Source of the DNA: Deltaproteobacteria bacterium
GTDB taxonomy: Bacteria; UBA10199; 2-02-FULL-44-16
Assembly: GCA_016203825.1 (NCBI GenBank)
Contig: JACQMA010000202.1
Span: forward strand, 1-18,462
Length of the DNA stretch: 18,462 nt
Direction of reading: 5' to 3'
Position 1 is the stretch's first letter. Each line of letters begins with the position of its first letter. Under the pieces are notes generated by a model. It worked only from the letters and a program-made list of their open reading frames with translations, ran no database searches and was not told the DNA's origin. The position numbers and the translations under genes are program-made. Shown here piece by piece: positions 497 through 18,462 of this stretch.

Positions 497-1753
497 ATGA
501 AATCATCGGAACTCAAAATGATTGGCGTGACCGGAACGAGCGGAAAGACGACGGTGACGTATCTTTTGGAGTCCATTTTTATGGCAGCAGGATTTTCGAC
601 CGGTGTGATCGGGACAATTGAGTATCGCGTTGGCACCAAACGCAAACCGGCGACCCTCACGACACCCGATTCGAAAGCGCTTCCGCCGCTCCTTGGCTGG
701 GTGGCGGATGAGGGAGCAACCCATTGCGTGATGGAGGTTTCGTCGCATGCGCTGGTTCAGGGGCGTGTCGCGGCGGTGCAGTTTGACGGCGCCATTTTTA
801 CCAATCTCACCCCCGAGCATCTCGATTACCACGCTGACATGGAGTCGTATTTTCAGGCGAAGTCCACGCTCTTCACGAAGCTCTTGAATGCCAGCACCAA
901 ACCCAATCGATTTGCCGTCGTGAACACCGACGATCCCTTTGGGAAGAGACTGTGCACCAAGATTTCCGTGCCACTGATTTCTTACGGTGAACAGCATGCG
1001 AATGTTTTCGCCGAAAAGGTAGATGCCTGTCGAGATGGACTCGTGATGAGCGTGAAAACGCCGCGAGGAAAACTGGAGCTTCACTCGCCGCTCATCGCGC
1101 GGTTGAATGTCCCCAATATTTTGGCGGCCGTTGCGACGGCTCAGGCGATGGACCTATCAACGGACGCGATCGTGCGTGGCATTGCCAACATGAAAGGTGT
1201 GAAGGGACGCTTCGAGCTCGTGTCAAACGCCAAGGGCGTCATCGCCATTGTCGATTATGCGCACAAACCGGATGCGTTGCGAAAAGTTTTAGAAGAAGCG
1301 CGGGCTCTAGCCATGAACCGGCCGCTGCGAGATTCCCCCGAGGAGGTGGCCACCGCAACCGCCGCAGGGGGTCGAGCAGACAGGCCGGTTCATGGTCGAG
1401 TTCTCGTCATTTTTGGTTGTGGTGGCGATCGCGACCGACAGAAACGCCCCGTGATGGGGGAAACTGCCGCAGAGCTTGCCGATGTCGTTGTGGTGACGAG
1501 CGATAATCCACGAAGCGAATCGGCCGAGGCGATTATCGCCGAGATTCTTCCGGGCGTGAAAAAGAAAACATCTTCGGTTCAGGTCATTCCGGATCGCCGC
1601 GAGGCCATCCGCTGGGCGGTCAACGAATCTCGTCCGGGCGATGTTCTGGTCGTGGCCGGAAAAGGACACGAAGATTATCAAATCATCGGGAATCAGCGGA
1701 ACCACTTTGATGATCGCGAAGAATTGGAGCATGCCTTTGTTCAGCGTCGATGA
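497..1753 (+). CDS. murE: UDP-N-acetylmuramoyl-tripeptide synthetase MurE, lacking the N-terminal domain
   Basis: A cytoplasmic ATP-dependent Mur ligase that adds the third stem-peptide residue to UDP-MurNAc-L-Ala-D-Glu. The P-loop GVTGTSGKTT is at residues 10-19. TPEHLDYHADMESYFQAKS is the usual MurE centre with the lysine that is carbamylated in the family. DNPR (residues 336-339) is the motif associated with meso-diaminopimelate. The GKGHEDYQ...DDRE C-terminus is canonical. The start at 497 follows an A/G-rich ribosome site (AGGGAAG, 488-494). The 418 residues are shorter than the usual 480-500, and the protein begins almost directly at the P-loop, so the N-terminal UDP-binding domain is missing. 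Only 14 bases separate it from ftsI, so the domain is not encoded immediately upstream. Residues about 272-300, between EEARALA and GRVLVIFGCGGDRD, are an extra segment encoded by a palindromic element. The 3' end overlaps murF. Confidence 0.93.
   Translation: MKSSELKMIGVTGTSGKTTVTYLLESIFMAAGFSTGVIGTIEYRVGTKRKPATLTTPDSKALPPLLGWVADEGATHCVMEVSSHALVQGRVAAVQFDGAIFTNLTPEHLDYHADMESYFQAKSTLFTKLLNASTKPNRFAVVNTDDPFGKRLCTKISVPLISYGEQHANVFAEKVDACRDGLVMSVKTPRGKLELHSPLIARLNVPNILAAVATAQAMDLSTDAIVRGIANMKGVKGRFELVSNAKGVIAIVDYAHKPDALRKVLEEARALAMNRPLRDSPEEVATATAAGGRADRPVHGRVLVIFGCGGDRDRQKRPVMGETAAELADVVVVTSDNPRSESAEAIIAEILPGVKKKTSSVQVIPDRREAIRWAVNESRPGDVLVVAGKGHEDYQIIGNQRNHFDDREELEHAFVQRR
1311..1395 (+). repeat. 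Protein-coding palindromic element in murE (same family as murG copy)
   Basis: A 13-bp perfect inverted repeat, CCATGAACCGGCC (1311-1323) and GGCCGGTTCATGG (1383-1395), encloses an inner CCCCC (1335-1339) / GGGGG (1367-1371) pairing and the 10-bp palindrome GGTGGCCACC (1345-1354). The shared blocks GGCCGCTGCGAG (1320-1331) and CGAGCAGACAGGCC (1373-1386) recur exactly in murG at 7127-7138 and 7186-7199. It is translated in frame as a segment running from NRPLR to RADRPV. This segment is absent from ordinary MurE proteins, where the flanking parts are nearly adjacent. Confidence 0.85.
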
Positions 1754-3125
1754 CATTGTGAAGGCAACGGGTGGGGCACTCCTGCAAGCGGGGACACCGT
1801 CGGTGAAAATAACAGGGGTGAGTCACGACACACGGGCAACCCTTGGCAGCACTCTTTTTGTGGCCATCCCGGGTCCGCGTTTTGATGGTCACACGTTTGT
1901 GGCCGAGGCCGCGCGGAAAGGTGCCGTTGCCGCCCTTGTGAGCCACGTCGTTGCAGCCCCTCCCTCGATGGCGCTCATCAAAGTGGAAGATACGATTCGT
2001 GCCTTGGGCGATCTGGCTCATGCGTGGCGCCAAAAATTTTCTGTCCCCTGCGTGGCGATCACCGGGAGTAATGGAAAATCGACCACGAAACAGATGGCGA
2101 CGGCGATCGCCTCGGAGCTTGGTGACGTTCTCGCCACCGAGGGCAACTTTAACAACCTCATCGGTCTTCCGCTGACCCTCTTCCGATGGCGCGATCACCA
2201 TCGTGCGGCGATTCTCGAAATGGGAATGAACACACCGGGAGAAATTCAACGACTGACCGAGATCACGCGCCCGACGGTTGGCCTTATTACGAACGTGACC
2301 GCCGCCCATCTCGAACGTCTCGGCTCCGTCGAGGCCGTAGCCCGTGCTAAGGGCGAACTTTTCGACACGATGGGGAAAGAGGCGATCGCGATTATTAATG
2401 ATGAAGACCCTTGGGCGAAAAAATTGGGGGCAGCCTTTCGCGGTCGATGTATTCACTACGGAATGCAGAATGAATCGGATGTTCGTTTTTGTCACATGGA
2501 GACGCCAGCGTTCGACACAACGACCTTCACGGTTGCTGCGAAGGAGAAAGAGGTGACCATCACGCTTCCCGTGATGGGCGTGCATAATGTTCTGAATGCG
2601 ATGGCCGCCATCGCAATCGGCGAGGCGTTGGGTGTTGATCTGGAAAGGGCTGCGAAGCGACTCCAATCGTTCAAGCCCATGGCCATGCGCTTCGAACAGA
2701 TCCAGCTCGCCAATGGCGTTCGTCTTATTCACGACGCCTACAATGCAAATCCGGAATCGATGACAGCGGCCCTCACGACCATTGCCACCGCAAAGCGTGC
2801 GGGACGTTTTATTGCCGTTCTTGGCGACATGCTGGAATTGGGTGCAGCTTCCGCAAAGCTTCACCGTGACGTCGGAACAAAGGCTGTTCAGTGTGGCGTC
2901 GATCAACTCTATGCCGTGGGACGTTTCGCAGCCGCCATGGTTGATGGCGCTCGATCTGCCGGTATGAAAAATGGGCAAGCTCGCGCCGAGCAAGAGCTCG
3001 ATGCGGTGAAAGACGACGTGCTGGGCACATTGAAAACGGGAGATGTGATCTTGGTCAAGGCGTCACGAGGCATGAAGTTCGAGCGCCTCGTGGAATTTTT
3101 GAAACGAGAGATAGGGAGCGGCTAA
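1731..3125 (+). CDS. murF: UDP-N-acetylmuramoyl-tripeptide--D-alanyl-D-alanine ligase MurF
   Basis: A cytoplasmic Mur ligase that adds D-Ala-D-Ala to complete the UDP-MurNAc-pentapeptide. The N-terminal domain starts FSVDDIVKATGGALL. The P-loop is AITGSNGKSTTK (residues 109-120). Further signatures are EGNFNNLIGLPLTL, ILEMGMNTPGEI, ITNVTAAHLERLGS, HNVLNAMAA, DAYNANPESM and LGDMLELG. At 464 residues it has normal length and shows no inserted repeat. The start at ATG 1731 gives the usual MurF N-terminus and overlaps murE by 23 bases. GGAG at 1726-1729 is very close to it, so ATG 1710 (seven residues longer) is the alternative. The stop (TAA) shares a base with the mraY start (TAATG), which suggests translational coupling. 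Confidence 0.96.
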   Translation: MPLFSVDDIVKATGGALLQAGTPSVKITGVSHDTRATLGSTLFVAIPGPRFDGHTFVAEAARKGAVAALVSHVVAAPPSMALIKVEDTIRALGDLAHAWRQKFSVPCVAITGSNGKSTTKQMATAIASELGDVLATEGNFNNLIGLPLTLFRWRDHHRAAILEMGMNTPGEIQRLTEITRPTVGLITNVTAAHLERLGSVEAVARAKGELFDTMGKEAIAIINDEDPWAKKLGAAFRGRCIHYGMQNESDVRFCHMETPAFDTTTFTVAAKEKEVTITLPVMGVHNVLNAMAAIAIGEALGVDLERAAKRLQSFKPMAMRFEQIQLANGVRLIHDAYNANPESMTAALTTIATAKRAGRFIAVLGDMLELGAASAKLHRDVGTKAVQCGVDQLYAVGRFAAAMVDGARSAGMKNGQARAEQELDAVKDDVLGTLKTGDVILVKASRGMKFERLVEFLKREIGSG

Positions 3126-4201
3126 TGCTGTATCACTGGATTTATCCGTTGAAGGTTTATTGGAGCGGACTGAATGTCCTCAAATACATCTCGGTTCGGA
3201 TGTTTATTGCCGCCTTCATCGCGATGGGGATCTACTTTGTGTTTGGGCGCGCGATGATTCGCTGCCTCGCCGCTCGGCAATTTTGGCAGACGGTGCGCAA
3301 TGACGGTCCCGTGAGTCACATGGACAAGCGCGGCACGCCCACGATGGGAGGGTTGCTGTTGTGGGGAGCCGTCCTCGTTGCACTGCTGCTCTGCGGTCGT
3401 TTTGATGTGCCGTATATTCCGATCAGCATGGCCGTGATCGTAATCTTTGGTGCGATTGGATTCCTCGACGACTACCGCAAAGTGATTCTCAAGGATGCAA
3501 AGGGATTGCGGGCGCGTTGGAAATTTCCGCTTCAGGTCGCCACGGCGACCATCATTGTCCTGATCCTTTTTGATGTCGTTGGTCTTACGCGTGACATCAC
3601 GATTCCCTTTTTCAAAGACGTGCGTCCCGATTTGGGAAACTGGATGGTTCCCTTTGCAGTCCTTGTCATCGTGGGAACGTCGAATGCCGTGAATCTCACC
3701 GACGGTCTTGACGGCCTCGTCTCCATGCCCTCGATCGTCGTCTTCTTGGCGTATGCCGTCATCGCCTACATTACGGGCCACGCTGCCATCGCGTCGTACC
3801 TCCAGGTTCCCGTGATTCCGGGGAGTGGAGAACTTGCGGTGCTGTGCGGTGCCATCATCGGGGCGACGCTCGGTTTTCTCTGGTACAACGCGCATCCGGC
3901 GTCGGTCTTTATGGGGGACGTCGGATCGCTCCCGATGGGGGCGGTGCTGGGATACGTTGCCGTGGTGACGAAGAGTGAGATTCTCCTCGTTGTGATTGGC
4001 GGTCTCTTCGTCCTCGAGGCCATTTCGGTTATTACGCAGGTCATTTCGTTTAAACTTACGGGCAAACGGATCTTTCGGATGGCGCCGTTGCATCATCACT
4101 TTGAGCTGAAGGGTTGGCCGGAATCCAAGGTGATCGTCCGGTTTTGGATTATCACGATTATTTTGGCACTCGCGAGTTTGGCGACATTGAAACTACGATG
4201 A
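3125..4201 (+). CDS. mraY: Phospho-N-acetylmuramoyl-pentapeptide transferase MraY
   Basis: An inner-membrane enzyme that moves phospho-MurNAc-pentapeptide from UDP to undecaprenyl phosphate, giving lipid I. It has normal length (358 residues) and is very hydrophobic, with about ten membrane segments. Family motifs include SHMDKRGTPTMGG (residues 64-76), the Asp pair in LDDYRK (D115, D116), NLTDGLDGL (190-198), FMGDVGS (262-268) and PLHHHFE (321-327), all intact. The start overlaps the murF stop by one base and the stop overlaps the murD start as ATGA. Confidence 0.97.
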   Translation: MLYHWIYPLKVYWSGLNVLKYISVRMFIAAFIAMGIYFVFGRAMIRCLAARQFWQTVRNDGPVSHMDKRGTPTMGGLLLWGAVLVALLLCGRFDVPYIPISMAVIVIFGAIGFLDDYRKVILKDAKGLRARWKFPLQVATATIIVLILFDVVGLTRDITIPFFKDVRPDLGNWMVPFAVLVIVGTSNAVNLTDGLDGLVSMPSIVVFLAYAVIAYITGHAAIASYLQVPVIPGSGELAVLCGAIIGATLGFLWYNAHPASVFMGDVGSLPMGAVLGYVAVVTKSEILLVVIGGLFVLEAISVITQVISFKLTGKRIFRMAPLHHHFELKGWPESKVIVRFWIITIILALASLATLKLR

Positions 4202-5529
4202 ACATGCGCGGAAAAAAAGCCCTCGTCATCGGCCTCGGCAAATCGGGGATCGCTGCATGTCAGTATCTTGCGGCGCAAGGTGCACGCGTGGTGGCGGATG
4301 ATAGCAAACTCGGTCATCACGATCCCAAGCTCGTCGAAGGCATGGATCTTATTGTTGTGAGTCCTGGTGTACCGTTGAACCTCCCCCTGATCCAGCGAGC
4401 GCGCGAACGAAAAATTCCGGTTATCAGTGAAATGGAGTTGGCGTTGACAACTGTAGGGGCGGTTCGCGAACCGCCCCTACGCGAAAAACCCATTATCGCC
4501 ATCACCGGCACCAATGGAAAAACGACAACGACATCACTCATTGCCCATCTCTTGAAGGCGTGTGGTCAAAAAGTATGTGTTGCAGGAAATATCGGAACAC
4601 CACTCATCGCCATGATCGACGAAGCGCGCACAAGCGACTGGATCGTCCTTGAGGTCTCGAGTTTTCAATTGGAGACGACCCCGTCACTCCATCCCCAAGT
4701 GGCCGTATGGCTCAACGCGACCCCCGATCACCTCGATTGGCATGGATCGTTCGAGGATTATGTCGCCGCTAAGCGCAAGATCTTCGAACAACTGCCCCCT
4801 GATGGGTACGGCATATATAATGATAGGGATGAGGTAGTGACAAAGGCCGTGGCACAGGTAGGTGCGGGTTTCAAACCCGTCCCTACATTCATTCCATTCG
4901 GTAGGGGCACGGCATGCCGTGCCCCTACGTTCGATTTCACCAAGACGAAATTGGTTGGTGTCCACAACGAAGAGAACATGAAGGCAGCGGTGTTGGCGGT
5001 GGAATGTTGCCTCGGAAACGATAAAAAAGATATTTTTCAACACGCCCTCGAAACCTTTCGTCCGTTGCCCCACCGTCTTGAATTCGTTCGCGAGGTCAAT
5101 GGGGTTCGATATTATGACGACTCCAAGGGGACGAATGTGGGTGCCACGGTGAAGGCGCTTGAAAGCTTCACGTCCCCGATTATCCTGATTGCTGGCGGAA
5201 GAGACAAGGGTGGGAGTTATGATCCGCTGCTCCCGCTCGTAAAGAAACACGTCAAACACCTCATCGTCATCGGCGAGGCGGCAGCGGTTCTGCAAAAAAC
5301 AGTGGGGAGCGTCGCCATCACGACGCGCGCGGCATCATTAGAAGAAGCGGTTCTTCTTGCCGCACGGACGTCGAAGGCCGGTGATGTCGTCCTCTTGTCA
5401 CCGGCCTGTTCGAGTTTTGACATGTTCCGCGACTACGCCCATCGCGGCGAGGTGTTTCAGGGCGCCGTGAGATCATTGGGGAATACAGGAAAAAATGGAA
5501 GCGAACGAATTACACAAGCAGCACTTTGA
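4198..5529 (+). CDS. murD: UDP-N-acetylmuramoyl-L-alanine--D-glutamate ligase MurD
   Basis: A cytoplasmic Mur ligase that adds D-glutamate to UDP-MurNAc-L-Ala. The N-terminal domain begins KKALVIGLGKSGIAA. The P-loop is GTNGKTT (residues 104-110). EVSSFQLE, TPDHLDWHGSFEDYVAAKRKI, YYDDSKGTN, LIAGGRDKG and the SPACSSFDMF...HRGEVF end are canonical. The chosen ATG forms an ATGA overlap with the mraY stop; ATG 4204 is also possible. Three palindromic DNA elements lie inside the gene and stay in frame. The first (residues 86-95) sits in the linker just before the P-loop. The second and third (about 221-230 and 235-244) flank a short FIPFG strand in the central domain. Despite these inserts the gene is open throughout and 443 residues long. 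The 3' end overlaps ftsW by 35 bases. Confidence 0.96.
   Translation: MNMRGKKALVIGLGKSGIAACQYLAAQGARVVADDSKLGHHDPKLVEGMDLIVVSPGVPLNLPLIQRARERKIPVISEMELALTTVGAVREPPLREKPIIAITGTNGKTTTTSLIAHLLKACGQKVCVAGNIGTPLIAMIDEARTSDWIVLEVSSFQLETTPSLHPQVAVWLNATPDHLDWHGSFEDYVAAKRKIFEQLPPDGYGIYNDRDEVVTKAVAQVGAGFKPVPTFIPFGRGTACRAPTFDFTKTKLVGVHNEENMKAAVLAVECCLGNDKKDIFQHALETFRPLPHRLEFVREVNGVRYYDDSKGTNVGATVKALESFTSPIILIAGGRDKGGSYDPLLPLVKKHVKHLIVIGEAAAVLQKTVGSVAITTRAASLEEAVLLAARTSKAGDVVLLSPACSSFDMFRDYAHRGEVFQGAVRSLGNTGKNGSERITQAAL
4453..4480 (+). repeat. Perfect 28-nt palindrome in murD (copy 1)
   Basis: The left half GTAGGGGCGGTTCG (4453-4466) is followed directly by its exact reverse complement (4467-4480), with no loop. 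It is read in frame as VGAVREPPL between the N-terminal domain (SEMELALTT) and the P-loop segment (KPIIAITGTNGKTT). It shares the GTAGG...CCTAC ends with two further palindromes at 4858-4886 and 4901-4928. Confidence 0.9.
4858..4886 (+). repeat. 29-nt imperfect palindrome in murD (copy 2)
   Basis: The left arm GTAGGTGCGGGTTT (4858-4871) pairs with AAACCCGTCCCTAC (4873-4886) around one unpaired C. Twelve of 14 positions match as Watson-Crick pairs. It is read as VGAGFKPVP, the same frame as copy 1. It lies in the variable part of the MurD central domain. Confidence 0.85.
4901..4928 (+). repeat. Perfect 28-nt palindrome in murD (copy 3)
   Basis: The left half GTAGGGGCACGGCA (4901-4914) is followed by its exact reverse complement (4915-4928). 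It is read as GRGTACRAPT, a different frame from copies 1 and 2. It is 14 bases downstream of copy 2, and the spacer encodes part of a FIPFG strand that looks like native MurD. The two copies therefore look like separate insertions. Confidence 0.9.
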
Positions 5530-6610
5530 CGTCTGGCTCCTCTTTGTGGCCATCGCCCTCGTCGTGATCGGGGTCACGATGGTTTACAGTTCCAGTGGCG
5601 TCCTGGCACTCGAGCGCTACGGCGACTCCTATTATTATCTCAAGCGGACCGTCTTCTTTGCCCTCTTGGGTTTCTGTGGAATCGCCCTCCTGCTTCGTTT
5701 TCCCTACGTCCGGCTGCGGCGCTGGATTTATCCCATCCTCATCGGGACGTTGGGACTCGTCCTTCTCGTTTTTATTCCCGGTGTGGGACGCACGATTGGG
5801 GGCGCGACCCGTTGGGTCAACGTGGGGTTGTTTGCCTTTCAACCTTCGGAGATGATGAAGATCGCCCTCATTCTCTATCTCGCGTATTCGCTTGAGAAGA
5901 AGGGCGAGCGGGTCCATCGTTTCTCGGTCGGCATCCTTCCGCATCTTCTGGTCCTTGCGGTGGTCGGGGCGGCGATTTTGGCGCAGCGCGATTTCGGATC
6001 GGTGGCGTTGCTCGCGATGATCACCTGGCTCATGCTCTTTGCCGCGGGCGCCAAGCCTCGCTACCTTTACGGTTTTCTCGGTGCCGTGATCCTTGCCGGA
6101 ACCGCCCTCATCCTCGGGAGCCCTTATCGACGTGAGCGTGTGTTTGCTTTCCTTAATCCCTGGAGCGATCAGTACGGTTCCGGTTTTCAGATGATCCAGT
6201 CGCTCGTCGCCTTCAACGAGGGCGGATGGTTTGGCCAAGGGCTGGGAGAGGGGCGACAAAAACTTTTCTACCTCCCCGAGGCCCGCACAGATTTTATTCT
6301 CTCCGTCGTTGGAGAAGAGCTTGGTCTCTTGGGTGTGCTCACCGTTATCCTTCTCTTCGTCATTTTTTGTTATCGCGGATTTCGCATCGCGCTCAATGCC
6401 CCCGATGCTTTTGGTCGTCTCATGACGTTTGGGTGCACGGTGCTCGTGGGCGTGCAGTCGCTCCTCAATATGGGTGTCGTGATGGGGTTGCTTCCGACCA
6501 AGGGGCTCACCCTTCCGTTCATGAGTTATGGCGGGTCGTCGCTCGCGATGTCGCTCGTTGCGGTGGGACTCATGCTCAACGTGTCATCCTATCGAAAGGG
6601 GTACGAATGA
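5495..6610 (+). CDS. ftsW: Lipid II polymerase FtsW (SEDS family)
   Basis: A polytopic inner-membrane SEDS glycosyltransferase that polymerises lipid II at the septum together with FtsI. It has 371 residues and about ten membrane segments. The sequence NPWSDQYGSGFQMIQSLVAF, the following GLGEGRQKLFYLPEARTDFI segment, VGEELGLLG and the C-terminal FMSYGGSS are the conserved SEDS signatures. The start at 5495 has AGGA (5487-5490) at suitable spacing and lies inside the end of murD. Its stop overlaps the murG start as ATGA. FtsW rather than RodA is chosen from the dcw context. Confidence 0.96.
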   Translation: MEANELHKQHFDVWLLFVAIALVVIGVTMVYSSSGVLALERYGDSYYYLKRTVFFALLGFCGIALLLRFPYVRLRRWIYPILIGTLGLVLLVFIPGVGRTIGGATRWVNVGLFAFQPSEMMKIALILYLAYSLEKKGERVHRFSVGILPHLLVLAVVGAAILAQRDFGSVALLAMITWLMLFAAGAKPRYLYGFLGAVILAGTALILGSPYRRERVFAFLNPWSDQYGSGFQMIQSLVAFNEGGWFGQGLGEGRQKLFYLPEARTDFILSVVGEELGLLGVLTVILLFVIFCYRGFRIALNAPDAFGRLMTFGCTVLVGVQSLLNMGVVMGLLPTKGLTLPFMSYGGSSLAMSLVAVGLMLNVSSYRKGYE

Positions 6611-7752
6611 GGGTGCTCATCGCCGCCGGAGGAACGGGAGGGACATTGTATCCCGGCATTGCCCTTGCCCAGGGGATCGTGCGCCGCGCCCCTGATGCCG
6701 ACGTCGTTTTTGTCGGTGCGGGGCGTCCCGTGGAAACGCTTGCCCTGCGAGGGACGCCGTGGAGGCTGGTGACGCTTGCGATGCCGAGGATCAAAGGCCA
6801 GTCGTTGATCGTTCGACTGTGGACGATACTCCAGTTGCCGGTTGTCCTGATCCGCGCTCTCCTTCTCGTTCGGCGTCTTCGTCCGTCGTTGGTTCTAGGT
6901 ATTGGTGGCTACGCCGCTGGGCCCGTTCCACTTGCCGCCGCATTGCAGGGGATTCCGATGGCCATTGTGGTCCCCGATGCCATTCCGGGATTGGCCAATC
7001 GATGGCTGGCCCGTTTTGCGCGACGTATCTTTTTGGGATTTCGCGAGGCCGCGTCCTTTTTTCCTGCGCATAAAGTAAGGGTCACCGGTAATCCCGTTCG
7101 GGAGGAAGTGTTAACTTGTAGTAACGGGCCGCTGCGAGCGAACCCGCAGCGAGTGACTCATTCTATAGTCACTCGCGAGGCGTTCCGAGCAGACAGGCCC
7201 GTCGCCAGCTTCACTGTTCTCTGTAGCGGGGGATCACAAGGGGCGCGTAGTCTCAATCGCGCCGTGGTCGAAGCCCTTCCTCACCTTCGAACGCTTGCGG
7301 GAAAGATCGTCTTCATCCATCAAGTGGGCGCGAAAGAAGACCTCAAGCGCATCGAGTCGGCGTATCGCGTCGCGGGCTTTGCGGCGGACGTCACACCGTT
7401 CATCGATCGTATGTGGGAAAGTTTGGCACGAGCGGATCTCGTGATCACACGCGCTGGAGCGTCGACGATTGCTGAACTCATGGCGTTGGCGAAACCCGCC
7501 ATCCTCGTTCCCTACCCGTTTGCCGCCGATGACCATCAGCGTGCGAATGCTGAAGTGATCGCTCGCTTGGGGGGCGCGATCATGATTCTCGATCGAGATC
7601 TTTCAGGGGAACGATTGGCGAGCGAGATCATGCGCTTCGTGACGCATCCGGAACTTTTGGACAACATGCAGGTGGCGCTCAAAAAAGACGACGCGGCACA
7701 GGCGTCTGATCGTATTGTCGAGGAATGCTGGAAGATGATGAAAGCTGCGTAA
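6607..7752 (+). CDS. murG: MurG-family UDP-GlcNAc transferase (lipid II synthesis), divergent N-terminal motifs
   Basis: A membrane-associated GT-B glycosyltransferase that adds GlcNAc to lipid I on the cytoplasmic face. The C-terminal donor-binding half is standard: GGSQGAR (208-214), TRAGASTIAEL (281-291) and PFAADDHQRANAE (304-316). The N-terminal half keeps GIGGYAAGP (98-106) and AIPGLANR (125-132). However, the usual GGTGGH loop reads GGTGGT (Thr13 for His), and the usual HEQN before A(I/V)PG reads VVPD (121-124). Both are normally strongly conserved. Residues about 173-199 are an extra segment encoded by a palindromic element, between VTGNPVREEV and the GGSQGA domain. The ATGA overlap with ftsW fixes the start. 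The family call is firm from sequence and position; full catalytic competence is less sure. Confidence 0.92.
   Translation: MRVLIAAGGTGGTLYPGIALAQGIVRRAPDADVVFVGAGRPVETLALRGTPWRLVTLAMPRIKGQSLIVRLWTILQLPVVLIRALLLVRRLRPSLVLGIGGYAAGPVPLAAALQGIPMAIVVPDAIPGLANRWLARFARRIFLGFREAASFFPAHKVRVTGNPVREEVLTCSNGPLRANPQRVTHSIVTREAFRADRPVASFTVLCSGGSQGARSLNRAVVEALPHLRTLAGKIVFIHQVGAKEDLKRIESAYRVAGFAADVTPFIDRMWESLARADLVITRAGASTIAELMALAKPAILVPYPFAADDHQRANAEVIARLGGAIMILDRDLSGERLASEIMRFVTHPELLDNMQVALKKDDAAQASDRIVEECWKMMKAA
7124..7202 (+). repeat. Protein-coding palindromic element in murG (same family as murE copy)
   Basis: The outer stem is ACGGGCC (7124-7130) with GGCCCGT (7196-7202). The inner 10-bp perfect stem is GCGAGTGACT (7149-7158) with AGTCACTCGC (7167-7176) around an 8-nt loop. 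It contains the blocks GGCCGCTGCGAG (7127-7138) and CGAGCAGACAGGCC (7186-7199), identical to those in murE. It is translated in the same frame as the murE copy, from NGPLR to RADRPV. The inner part differs completely from murE, so the ends rather than the middle are conserved. Confidence 0.85.
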
Positions 7753-17645: not shown

Positions 17646-18462
17646 TGGTGCCCGCTTTTCTCCCTGCCCTTGTGATCGTGTTTGGACTCCAGGAACTTCG
17701 CGTCTTTTTCCCGAGTCTCGCGTGGTACCTCAAAGACACCGTCGGCCTTTCGTCGCTTCAACTTGCTCCTATTGCGTTTGGGACGGTGGCGACGGTTTTT
17801 CTCGTTCCCCTTTTCGCGCGTCGCTATGGATGGCATCGCCTCTGGCAGGGTGCGGCCGTTGGACTCGCGGTGGTGCGTGTCGCGGAACAAATGGTCACGA
17901 TCCCCGCCGCCGACTTTGTGCTGAGTGCGACGGGCGTTGTCCTTTTCCTCACGGCATGCGCGGCATTTCTTTCGTTGAGGTTGCGGGGAAGGGTACTTTC
18001 CTTCTTCCTTGGCTGTACACTCGACACCGCCATTCGCGGATTCGCCGGAACGTTGGATTTGAGTTGGTACGATACCTGGTGGGCAATCATTGCAGTTTTC
18101 GTACTAGCTGCGGCGGTCGTTGCTGTCATTGCGAGGAGCGAAGCGACGCGGCAATCTCCTGCTACACATGATGCCGGGAGATCGCCACGCCCCTCCGGGG
18201 CTCGCGATGACATCGCGGTCCTCGCTATCGGTCCCTTCCTCTTTCTCCAAATGCTCATCTTCCAAAATTTTGGCTGGATTGCGGAAACCTTTCATCTCAC
18301 GCCAAGCGGGTCATTTTTTGCGATCATGGTGGGGAATGCGGCGGTCATTGCACTTACTTCTTTCTGTGGGACGCCGCTGCGAGAATTCCTCGAGCACCGC
18401 AGTCATGCCGCTGCCGAAGGCACGAGCCCGCCCGGAGTCGAAGCGACGGGCGAGGCTCAAGG
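17645..18462 (+). CDS. Polytopic membrane protein, unknown function (3' partial)
   Basis: The frame from GTG 17645 (or GTG 17648) is open to the right edge. It overlaps the last base of the transglycosylase stop (TAGTG), which suggests coupling. No good ribosome site is seen. The product starts V-V-PAFLPALVIVFGLQELRVF and has about eight hydrophobic segments in the visible 272 residues, including LAPIAFGTVATVFLVPLFA, FVLSATGVVLFLTACAAF, WWAIIAVFVLAAAVVAVIA and IGPFLFLQMLIFQNFGW. The pattern resembles a transporter-like (MFS-like) or similar multi-helix protein; I cannot name the family. Between helices six and seven, residues about 160-190 (ARSEATRQ to ARDD) are hydrophilic and encoded by an 89-bp inverted-repeat element. 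Residues about 245-272 are also hydrophilic and repeat-like. Confidence 0.7.
   Translation, partial: MVPAFLPALVIVFGLQELRVFFPSLAWYLKDTVGLSSLQLAPIAFGTVATVFLVPLFARRYGWHRLWQGAAVGLAVVRVAEQMVTIPAADFVLSATGVVLFLTACAAFLSLRLRGRVLSFFLGCTLDTAIRGFAGTLDLSWYDTWWAIIAVFVLAAAVVAVIARSEATRQSPATHDAGRSPRPSGARDDIAVLAIGPFLFLQMLIFQNFGWIAETFHLTPSGSFFAIMVGNAAVIALTSFCGTPLREFLEHRSHAAAEGTSPPGVEATGEAQ
18124..18212. repeat. 89-bp imperfect inverted-repeat element inside the membrane-protein gene
   Basis: The ends TGTCATTGCGAG (18124-18135) and CTCGCGATGACA (18201-18212) are inverted repeats matching at 11 of 12 positions. An inner pair, CGCGGCAATCTCC and GGAGATCGCCACG, continues the palindrome around a short centre. The motif (TCATTGCGAGGAGCGAAGCG...) resembles a dispersed repeat that I recall from many bacterial genomes; this is not checked. 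It is read in frame as a hydrophilic loop between two predicted membrane helices. Confidence 0.8.
18424..18458. repeat. Inverted repeat near right edge, in hydrophilic tail of the membrane protein
   Basis: GAGCCCGCCC (18424-18433) pairs with GGGCGAGGCTC (18448-18458) with one bulged base. It encodes part of a hydrophilic segment (EGTSPPGVEATGEAQ) after a predicted membrane helix. It may be another intragenic palindromic element, cut by or close to the window end. Confidence 0.5.

Follow-up and report, generated by a model that had tools for sequence, protein, structure and literature searches.

Stem arms particular to each site flank near-identical cores in a dispersed palindromic family found in frame in murE and murG

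Rickettsia palindromic elements (RPEs) are described as palindromic repeats of ~105–150 bp that occur in and between genes, lie in frame in conserved protein genes and, in RNA models, fold into a long stem-loop (PMC2229807, PMC10969869); a published table gives their terminal inverted repeats as 12 bp. The GTAG/CGTC repetitive extragenic palindromes (REPs) are small palindromes with sub-families that carry alternative complementary stem residues and with some intragenic copies, and RPE-4 and RPE-6 of R. conorii have been counted among them (PMC3733652). Hairpins can also arise by template switching, in which a neighbouring stretch is copied as its reverse complement, so that a single event yields a perfect stem (PMC8794818), and mitochondrial double-hairpin elements are mentioned as mobile hairpins in a compact genome (PMC7218506; all as given in the available portions of these papers). 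Here we analysed an 18,462-nt stretch of DNA, the whole of contig JACQMA010000202.1 of a Deltaproteobacteria bacterium (the window), in which murE and murG each contain a palindromic segment. The two segments are copies of a dispersed palindromic family, and their outer stem arms belong to the site rather than to the core.

The segments occupy positions 1311–1395 in murE (497–1753; Mur_ligase_M and Mur_ligase_C) and 7124–7202 in murG (6607–7752; Glyco_transf_28 and Glyco_tran_28_C), all on the forward strand and exactly where the original prediction had placed them. As it had claimed, they share the identical end blocks GGCCGCTGCGAG...CGAGCAGACAGGCC (1320–1386 and 7127–7199), and both are in frame, reading N-x-PLR...RADRPV. 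The outer palindrome of the murE copy, with conserved blocks at 1320–1331 and 1373–1386, has 13-bp arms (CCATGAACCGGCC/GGCCGGTTCATGG) and spans 1311–1395; that of the murG copy, which holds a nested GAGTGACTCATTCTATAGTCACTC hairpin, has 7-bp arms (ACGGGCC/GGCCCGT) and spans 7124–7202. A third forward-strand copy, which the prediction did not contain, is cut by the contig end (18369–18462), so that only its 5' part is present, in an open frame reading GTPLREFLEHRS...; positions 18373–18460 match a copy on contig C149 at 90% by BLAST, and the open reading frame (ORF) holding it gave no Pfam match.

In the window's genome (G000; 1.1-Mb assembly, 84% complete), block searches and a BLAST of four element types recovered 11 copies with end blocks, of which ten are complete and one is that at the contig end, as well as three loci with the murG-type inner hairpin alone (31–33 nt matched), giving 14 copies in total. 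The combined pattern GGCCGCTGCGAG...CGAGCAGACAGGCC occurred three times in G000, twice in the window and once on C154, and its reversed control not at all. A lack of further end-block copies, which would have counted against the original prediction, was not observed. Alone, the 5' block gave 14 matches versus 11 for the reversed control, and the 3' block with one mismatch 13 versus 1; isolated matches without partner block or arms were left out (5' block: C15, C108, C172, C207, C212; 3' block, one mismatch: C68, C73, C105, C192).

The centres of the copies fall into modules. Module A is present in murE, on C154 and at two places on C186 (a and b), module B in murG, in aroB (C29) and on C85, module C on C149, on C88 and at the contig end of the window, and module D on C18. 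The inner hairpin of module B was also found on its own, in mnmE (C50) and in intergenic DNA on C147 and C177, and the modules are therefore nested or exchanged. The murE and murG centres had been described as unrelated; they are not private to these genes, since the murE centre recurs in three more copies and the murG centre in two more plus the three solo inner hairpins.

A covariance model of end blocks and arms, built from ten copies with an artificial loop (R1), was run against 59 relatives besides G000 and matched in one, G001, which belongs to the same family as G000 and to a different genus; two weak R1 matches in G000 (C68, E 0.017; C19, E 0.27) were judged chance and left out. A second model (R2), built on the C18 copy and four G001 copies, found ten loci in G001 with E ≤ 6e-12, six of which had not been used in building it; two matches in G007 (E 6.8 and 9.4) were not counted, nor were two more in G001, the opposite strand of one copy (E 0.007) and a fragment (E 4). 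R2 had no match in 44 other genomes of the phylum under the stricter filters used for all searches across more than 40 genomes, with which weak matches are lost, and in the nine nearest genomes, additionally searched without these filters, nothing outside G000 and G001 was better than E 6.8. The copy sites seen differ between the two genera, and each carries a separate set. Exact end-block matches in the GTDB genome collection (six, with mismatching arms and centres, judged chance) and in IMG/VR (eight, all one unrelated conserved viral sequence) were rejected, and the G001-type pattern had no match in IMG/VR; both collections may omit the records closest to the window's genome. BLAST of the murE element against plasmids and of the murG element against phages gave no match, an Rfam scan of the 12 sources holding G000 copies returned, above the family gathering thresholds, only a tRNA and no family that fits the element, and no description of the family was found in titles and abstract openings of the open-licence literature.

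Comparing the host proteins with their relatives showed that the segments are not conserved ancestral loops, the outcome that would have spoken against insertion. In an alignment of 40 of the 120 listed MurE proteins (query included), 39 of 39 homologues had 5–8 residues where this protein has 31, among them the nearest relative P0002 (76% identity) with five, and in whole genomes of relatives most MurE matches stopped near residue 272 and resumed near 299. For MurG, 42 of 43 aligned homologues had 16–19 residues versus 38 here, a net gain of ~20 residues, which is less than the element encodes. In two alignments, TGT chains ran contiguously across the 40-residue insert of G001. Of 121 proteins listed for the G001 acyl-CoA synthetase, 13 were aligned, and 11 of the 12 homologues lacked the insert (ten have four residues at the site and P0250 has eleven); the other, P0242, is the same protein with the insert present. 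A net gain in length was also seen in mnmE and in G001 aroB, and in G000 aroB it came to 0–12 residues depending on the alignment, again less than the element encodes.

Several observations on these proteins stand apart. The 43rd MurG homologue, P0123, also has 38 residues, with a different insert (~STHIPFTLSQSKGEQGSLGA) at the place corresponding to 7124–7202, possibly a hot spot for insertion. Most other MurE homologues listed carry the N-terminal Mur ligase domain (PF01225), which was found neither in the murE product (497–1753) nor in P0002. The G001 acyl-CoA synthetase (L130) has a second insert, SFPQKRESHVNTGDPRMREGDI, at residues ~587–608, resembling another type of repeat.

The arms behave differently from the core they enclose. 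Only the CC/GG adjoining the core is near-constant and the remaining arm positions vary; beyond CC/GG, the arms of G000 copies matched their own partner over a mean run of 6.0 bp and those of 90 swapped pairs over 1.58 bp (0 of 20,000 permutations did as well), and in each genome taken separately 0 of 5,000 permutations gave arm matching as good. Pairing past the first helix also exceeded that of swapped pairs (p 0.003 in G000; p 0.015 in G001, where two of ten copies, aroB and C29b, were mis-anchored), and with corrected anchors a 45-nt pairing score placed 11 of 23 copies above the 99th percentile of swapped pairs. Among the four module A copies the cores differ at 0–1 of 59 positions, the 59-nt core being identical in three of them, and the arms differ at 2–6 of 7 positions per side. 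Because near-identical cores carry such divergent arms, the arms are specific to the site, and slow compensatory mutation is not the explanation. The change of one outer-stem pair from C-G in murE to G-C in murG, originally called compensatory, is thus a real difference and one sign of arms that vary from site to site, but not the trace of an old stem slowly mutated on both sides.

In consensus the element folds as a rod, consisting of an outer helix, a loop with G opposite RCA, a helix CTGC/GCAG, tandem G-A opposite G-A and a second variable helix, so that the conserved internal loop CTGCGA/GAGCAGRCA sits between variable helices; the D type adds a loop TCAGCA/GCGCG and a third helix. When ten G000 copies were compared, both partners had changed in 10 of 12 arm pairs; 0 of 500 shuffles attained the covariation score and 3 of 500 the count of such pairs. 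In five D-type copies this held for 16 of 25 pairs, with 91.8% paired versus 73.1% after shuffling (0 of 500). The tested sequences are also those from which the structures were derived, which favours the structures. The inner helix P2 varies with both sides changed, and slid controls dropped to 25–42% paired. Of the original suggestion of selection on nucleic-acid structure, a conserved fold is what this inner-helix covariation supports. Among non-Watson-Crick pairs (first helix in 20 copies, second in 11), G.U was seen 17 times versus 6 for A.C, with 28 other mismatches, and the excess of G.U over A.C leans towards folding of the sense strand. For the CTGCGA/GAGCAGRCA loop, a kink-turn or an archaeal splice motif was weighed and rejected, as bulge and tandem GA lie 4 bp apart and in-gene copies keep the frame, which splicing would not require.

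In the two genomes together, 11 complete copies lie in frame within recognisable genes: murE, murG, aroB and mnmE (the inner-hairpin copy) in G000, and tgt, aroB, metG, a radical-SAM gene that would be hemW, a carotenoid-synthesis gene, the gene of a CxxCxxCC protein and the acyl-CoA synthetase gene in G001. The aroB copies have opposite orientations, their left boundaries are ~14 residues apart by eye and the right ones may coincide; we take these insertions as independent. Four further G000 copies precede the Pfam domain in open frames continuous with rsmH, an M23/LysM gene, surE and miaA; the G001 copies on C22 and C29b are in open frames and that on C10 is intergenic. From our own reading of translations, other neighbours would be mutL, pcm, shc, trxB, rlmH, polX, hisS, aspS and deoC.

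All six sense in-gene copies with end blocks use one frame (GCA GAC AGG, A-D-R), all four antisense ones use another (CTG TCT GCT, L-S-A-R), and the 5' block of the contig-end copy is in the same frame as in murE. Of the 20 complete end-block copies, 17, 12 and 12 are free of stops in the respective sense frames, so stop codons only partly explain this uniformity, and selection on the encoded peptide is possible. Mobility limited to one frame, another suggestion of the original prediction, was not borne out, since copies also lie between genes, antisense in genes and in other frames ahead of gene starts; the existence of intergenic and antisense copies makes a frame-limited mechanism unnecessary. 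In-gene copies keep the host frame open, and the insert would presumably be translated as a loop of ~25 residues.

We read the copies as a small non-autonomous mobile palindrome, RPE-like in its working, with arms made at the site, and put the probability of this reading at about 0.55. The mobile or recognised form would be a folded strand, RNA or single-stranded DNA. That the outer arms are made by inverted copying on insertion has about even odds: a folded core would join a nascent end and fold back, inverted copying of 5 to 40 nt of the neighbouring strand would follow until synthesis returned to its template, and the outcome would be a core carrying a private, matching stem, kept matched by later template switching between the arms. 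Generalised, such a folded mobile core would build its own stem at each insertion, leaving an inverted rather than a direct 'target duplication' and placing every copy on the tip of its own private hairpin, and the open frames of the core would allow entry into essential genes; this wider proposal is tentative, and we hold it at less than even odds.

Two sites suggest strand-switching or snap-back copying by their pairing into neighbouring DNA. At C6 of G001, where homologues set the insert boundaries (DFLS|xKxxF), an inverted copy of the right host flank (15 of 18 nt; equalled in 1 of 300 shuffles) and, overlapping it, an 11-nt direct repeat of the left host flank (1 of 300) lie in the left part of the insert; two more comparisons made there fell short of significance (equalled in 151 and 70 of 300 shuffles). 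At C154 of G000 an imperfect inverted repeat of 48 columns, 36 of them identical, is made up by the flanks (0 of 300 shuffles, compared with 31 of 300 for the direct comparison), including an outer block, outside the first helix and spacer, with 23 identities in 27 columns. In murE, the right CATGG would fit the host reading ALA-HG-R (ELA-KG-R in relatives), and the left CCATG would then be the copy. Several points weigh against arms copied from the host. The two standout results at C6 come from four comparisons, overlap in sequence and have uncorrected p values, and the C154 shuffle test takes in the 9-bp first helix. The extra DNA in tgt holds no significant inverted copy of its flank (126 of 300 shuffles as good). 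Only ~5 nt of murE arm can be assigned to the host, from protein alignments alone, and at one site only do protein boundaries suggest which arm is ancestral. In murG and G000 aroB the net gain is smaller than the element, and host residues may have been lost as well.

The main rival holds that template switching acts on the arms afterwards: they travel with the element and are rewritten fast after insertion by arm homogenisation, with no special insertion chemistry. In the available parts of the reports, stems of RNA genes are both created and repaired by template switching (PMC8794818), which also evens out the arms of inverted repeats in yeast coding genes (PMC8604942). Some arms here do look related, with C85 and C154 sharing GGCCACCATTTCC, C18 and C186b sharing AGGCGGTCC, and C154 and C186a differing at only 2 and 3 of 7 positions, and the inner helix P2 likewise varies on both sides. 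Rewriting would, however, have to spare the adjacent 59-nt core, identical in three of four module A copies, and at C6 and C154 pairing extends into DNA beyond the first helix; we consider this rival rather unlikely. Entry of the core into pre-existing palindromes only, the arms being the two halves of the target, would account for arms that match and differ from site to site, but it is improbable, because the 78-nt MurE protein gap covers most of both arms and the TGT gap covers both first-helix arms entirely, so that the empty genes would not hold a palindrome; in the acyl-CoA synthetase the left arm falls inside the gap. Least probable of all is a selected structured RNA, such as a hairpin acting in mRNA processing or stability, that spread long ago and whose stems drifted by compensatory substitution. 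The strong covariation, the same predominance of G.U and the several copies between genes read as co-directional agree with such an RNA, yet slow substitution does not give near-identical cores with arms up to 6 of 7 different, the other phylum genomes held no match under strict filters, and both the sites and the aroB orientation differ between the genera.

A mobiliser for the mobile palindrome that we favour was sought in two families, Y1 transposases and reverse transcriptases, and none was found. Y1 transposase gave 11 hits in three relatives and none in the 84%-complete G000 assembly; reverse transcriptase hits were confined to contig C4 of G001, which bears no R2 copy. No copy lay in the 14 loci (up to ~1.5 kb per side) around 11 Y1_Tnp and three reverse transcriptase hits, the copy nearest to a Y1 gene being that in G001 aroB, ~2.5 kb away, and three of the four Y1 loci examined in G001 carry other clear palindromes.

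Other repeats were noticed along the way. A murD-like open frame of the window holds two perfect GTAGGGGC...GCCCCTAC palindromes of GTAG-REP type (4453–4480 and 4901–4928), with a related sequence, GGTGCGGGTTTCAAACCCGTCCCTAC, just ahead of the second and a similar one in G001. A palindrome-like CCCGCCTACGCCCTTCGGGCTACGGCGGGCAAGC lies at 190–222 in the open frame 9–482 upstream of murE. Within the ORF that holds the contig-end copy, one frame of 18124–18156 reads CHCEERSDAAI, a repeat type that we take to be common in bacteria, and the long frame reads VIARSEATRQS. In G001, a stretch CCCCTGCGARAAAATCTTCACCAGTTTG occurring at least three times (L148 and L155) is a different dispersed repeat.

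These results add to the protein-coding palindromes a family for which we found no description and that has entered conserved enzyme genes in two genera, aroB in both. Private, matching arms on near-identical cores make the origin of in-gene palindrome stems a testable question, and 'compensatory' stem changes in repeats need not indicate selection. If insertion does copy its flanks in inverted orientation, it would offer a one-event route to new hairpins and new protein loops.

Of the known systems, RPEs, the precedent named in the original prediction, are the closest: dispersed palindromic copies (14 in G000, 10 in G001), in frame within conserved genes (11), with relatives that lack the insert for murE, murG, tgt and the acyl-CoA synthetase, support a mobile in-gene palindrome of that kind, the likeness claimed being one of description. 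Unlike RPEs, the element has no fixed terminal inverted repeats, its outermost arms being private to each copy, and it has exchangeable nested modules and conserved internal loops. It shares with GTAG/CGTC REPs the small palindrome, the varying complementary stems and the intragenic position of some copies, but lacks a GTAG or CGTC foot and has the conserved ends CC-G-CTGC / GCAG-RCA-GG. Set beside a miniature inverted-repeat transposable element, it has terminal repeats that vary and, at G001 C6, one 11-nt direct repeat, met outside any systematic search for direct duplications. Like the mitochondrial double-hairpin elements, fungal ones among them, it would be a mobile hairpin in a compact genome, but a single rod, bacterial and in frame in genes. 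Template-switch hairpins, finally, are described without a mobile core in the available part of the account (PMC8794818), whereas here the same core tips many different stems.

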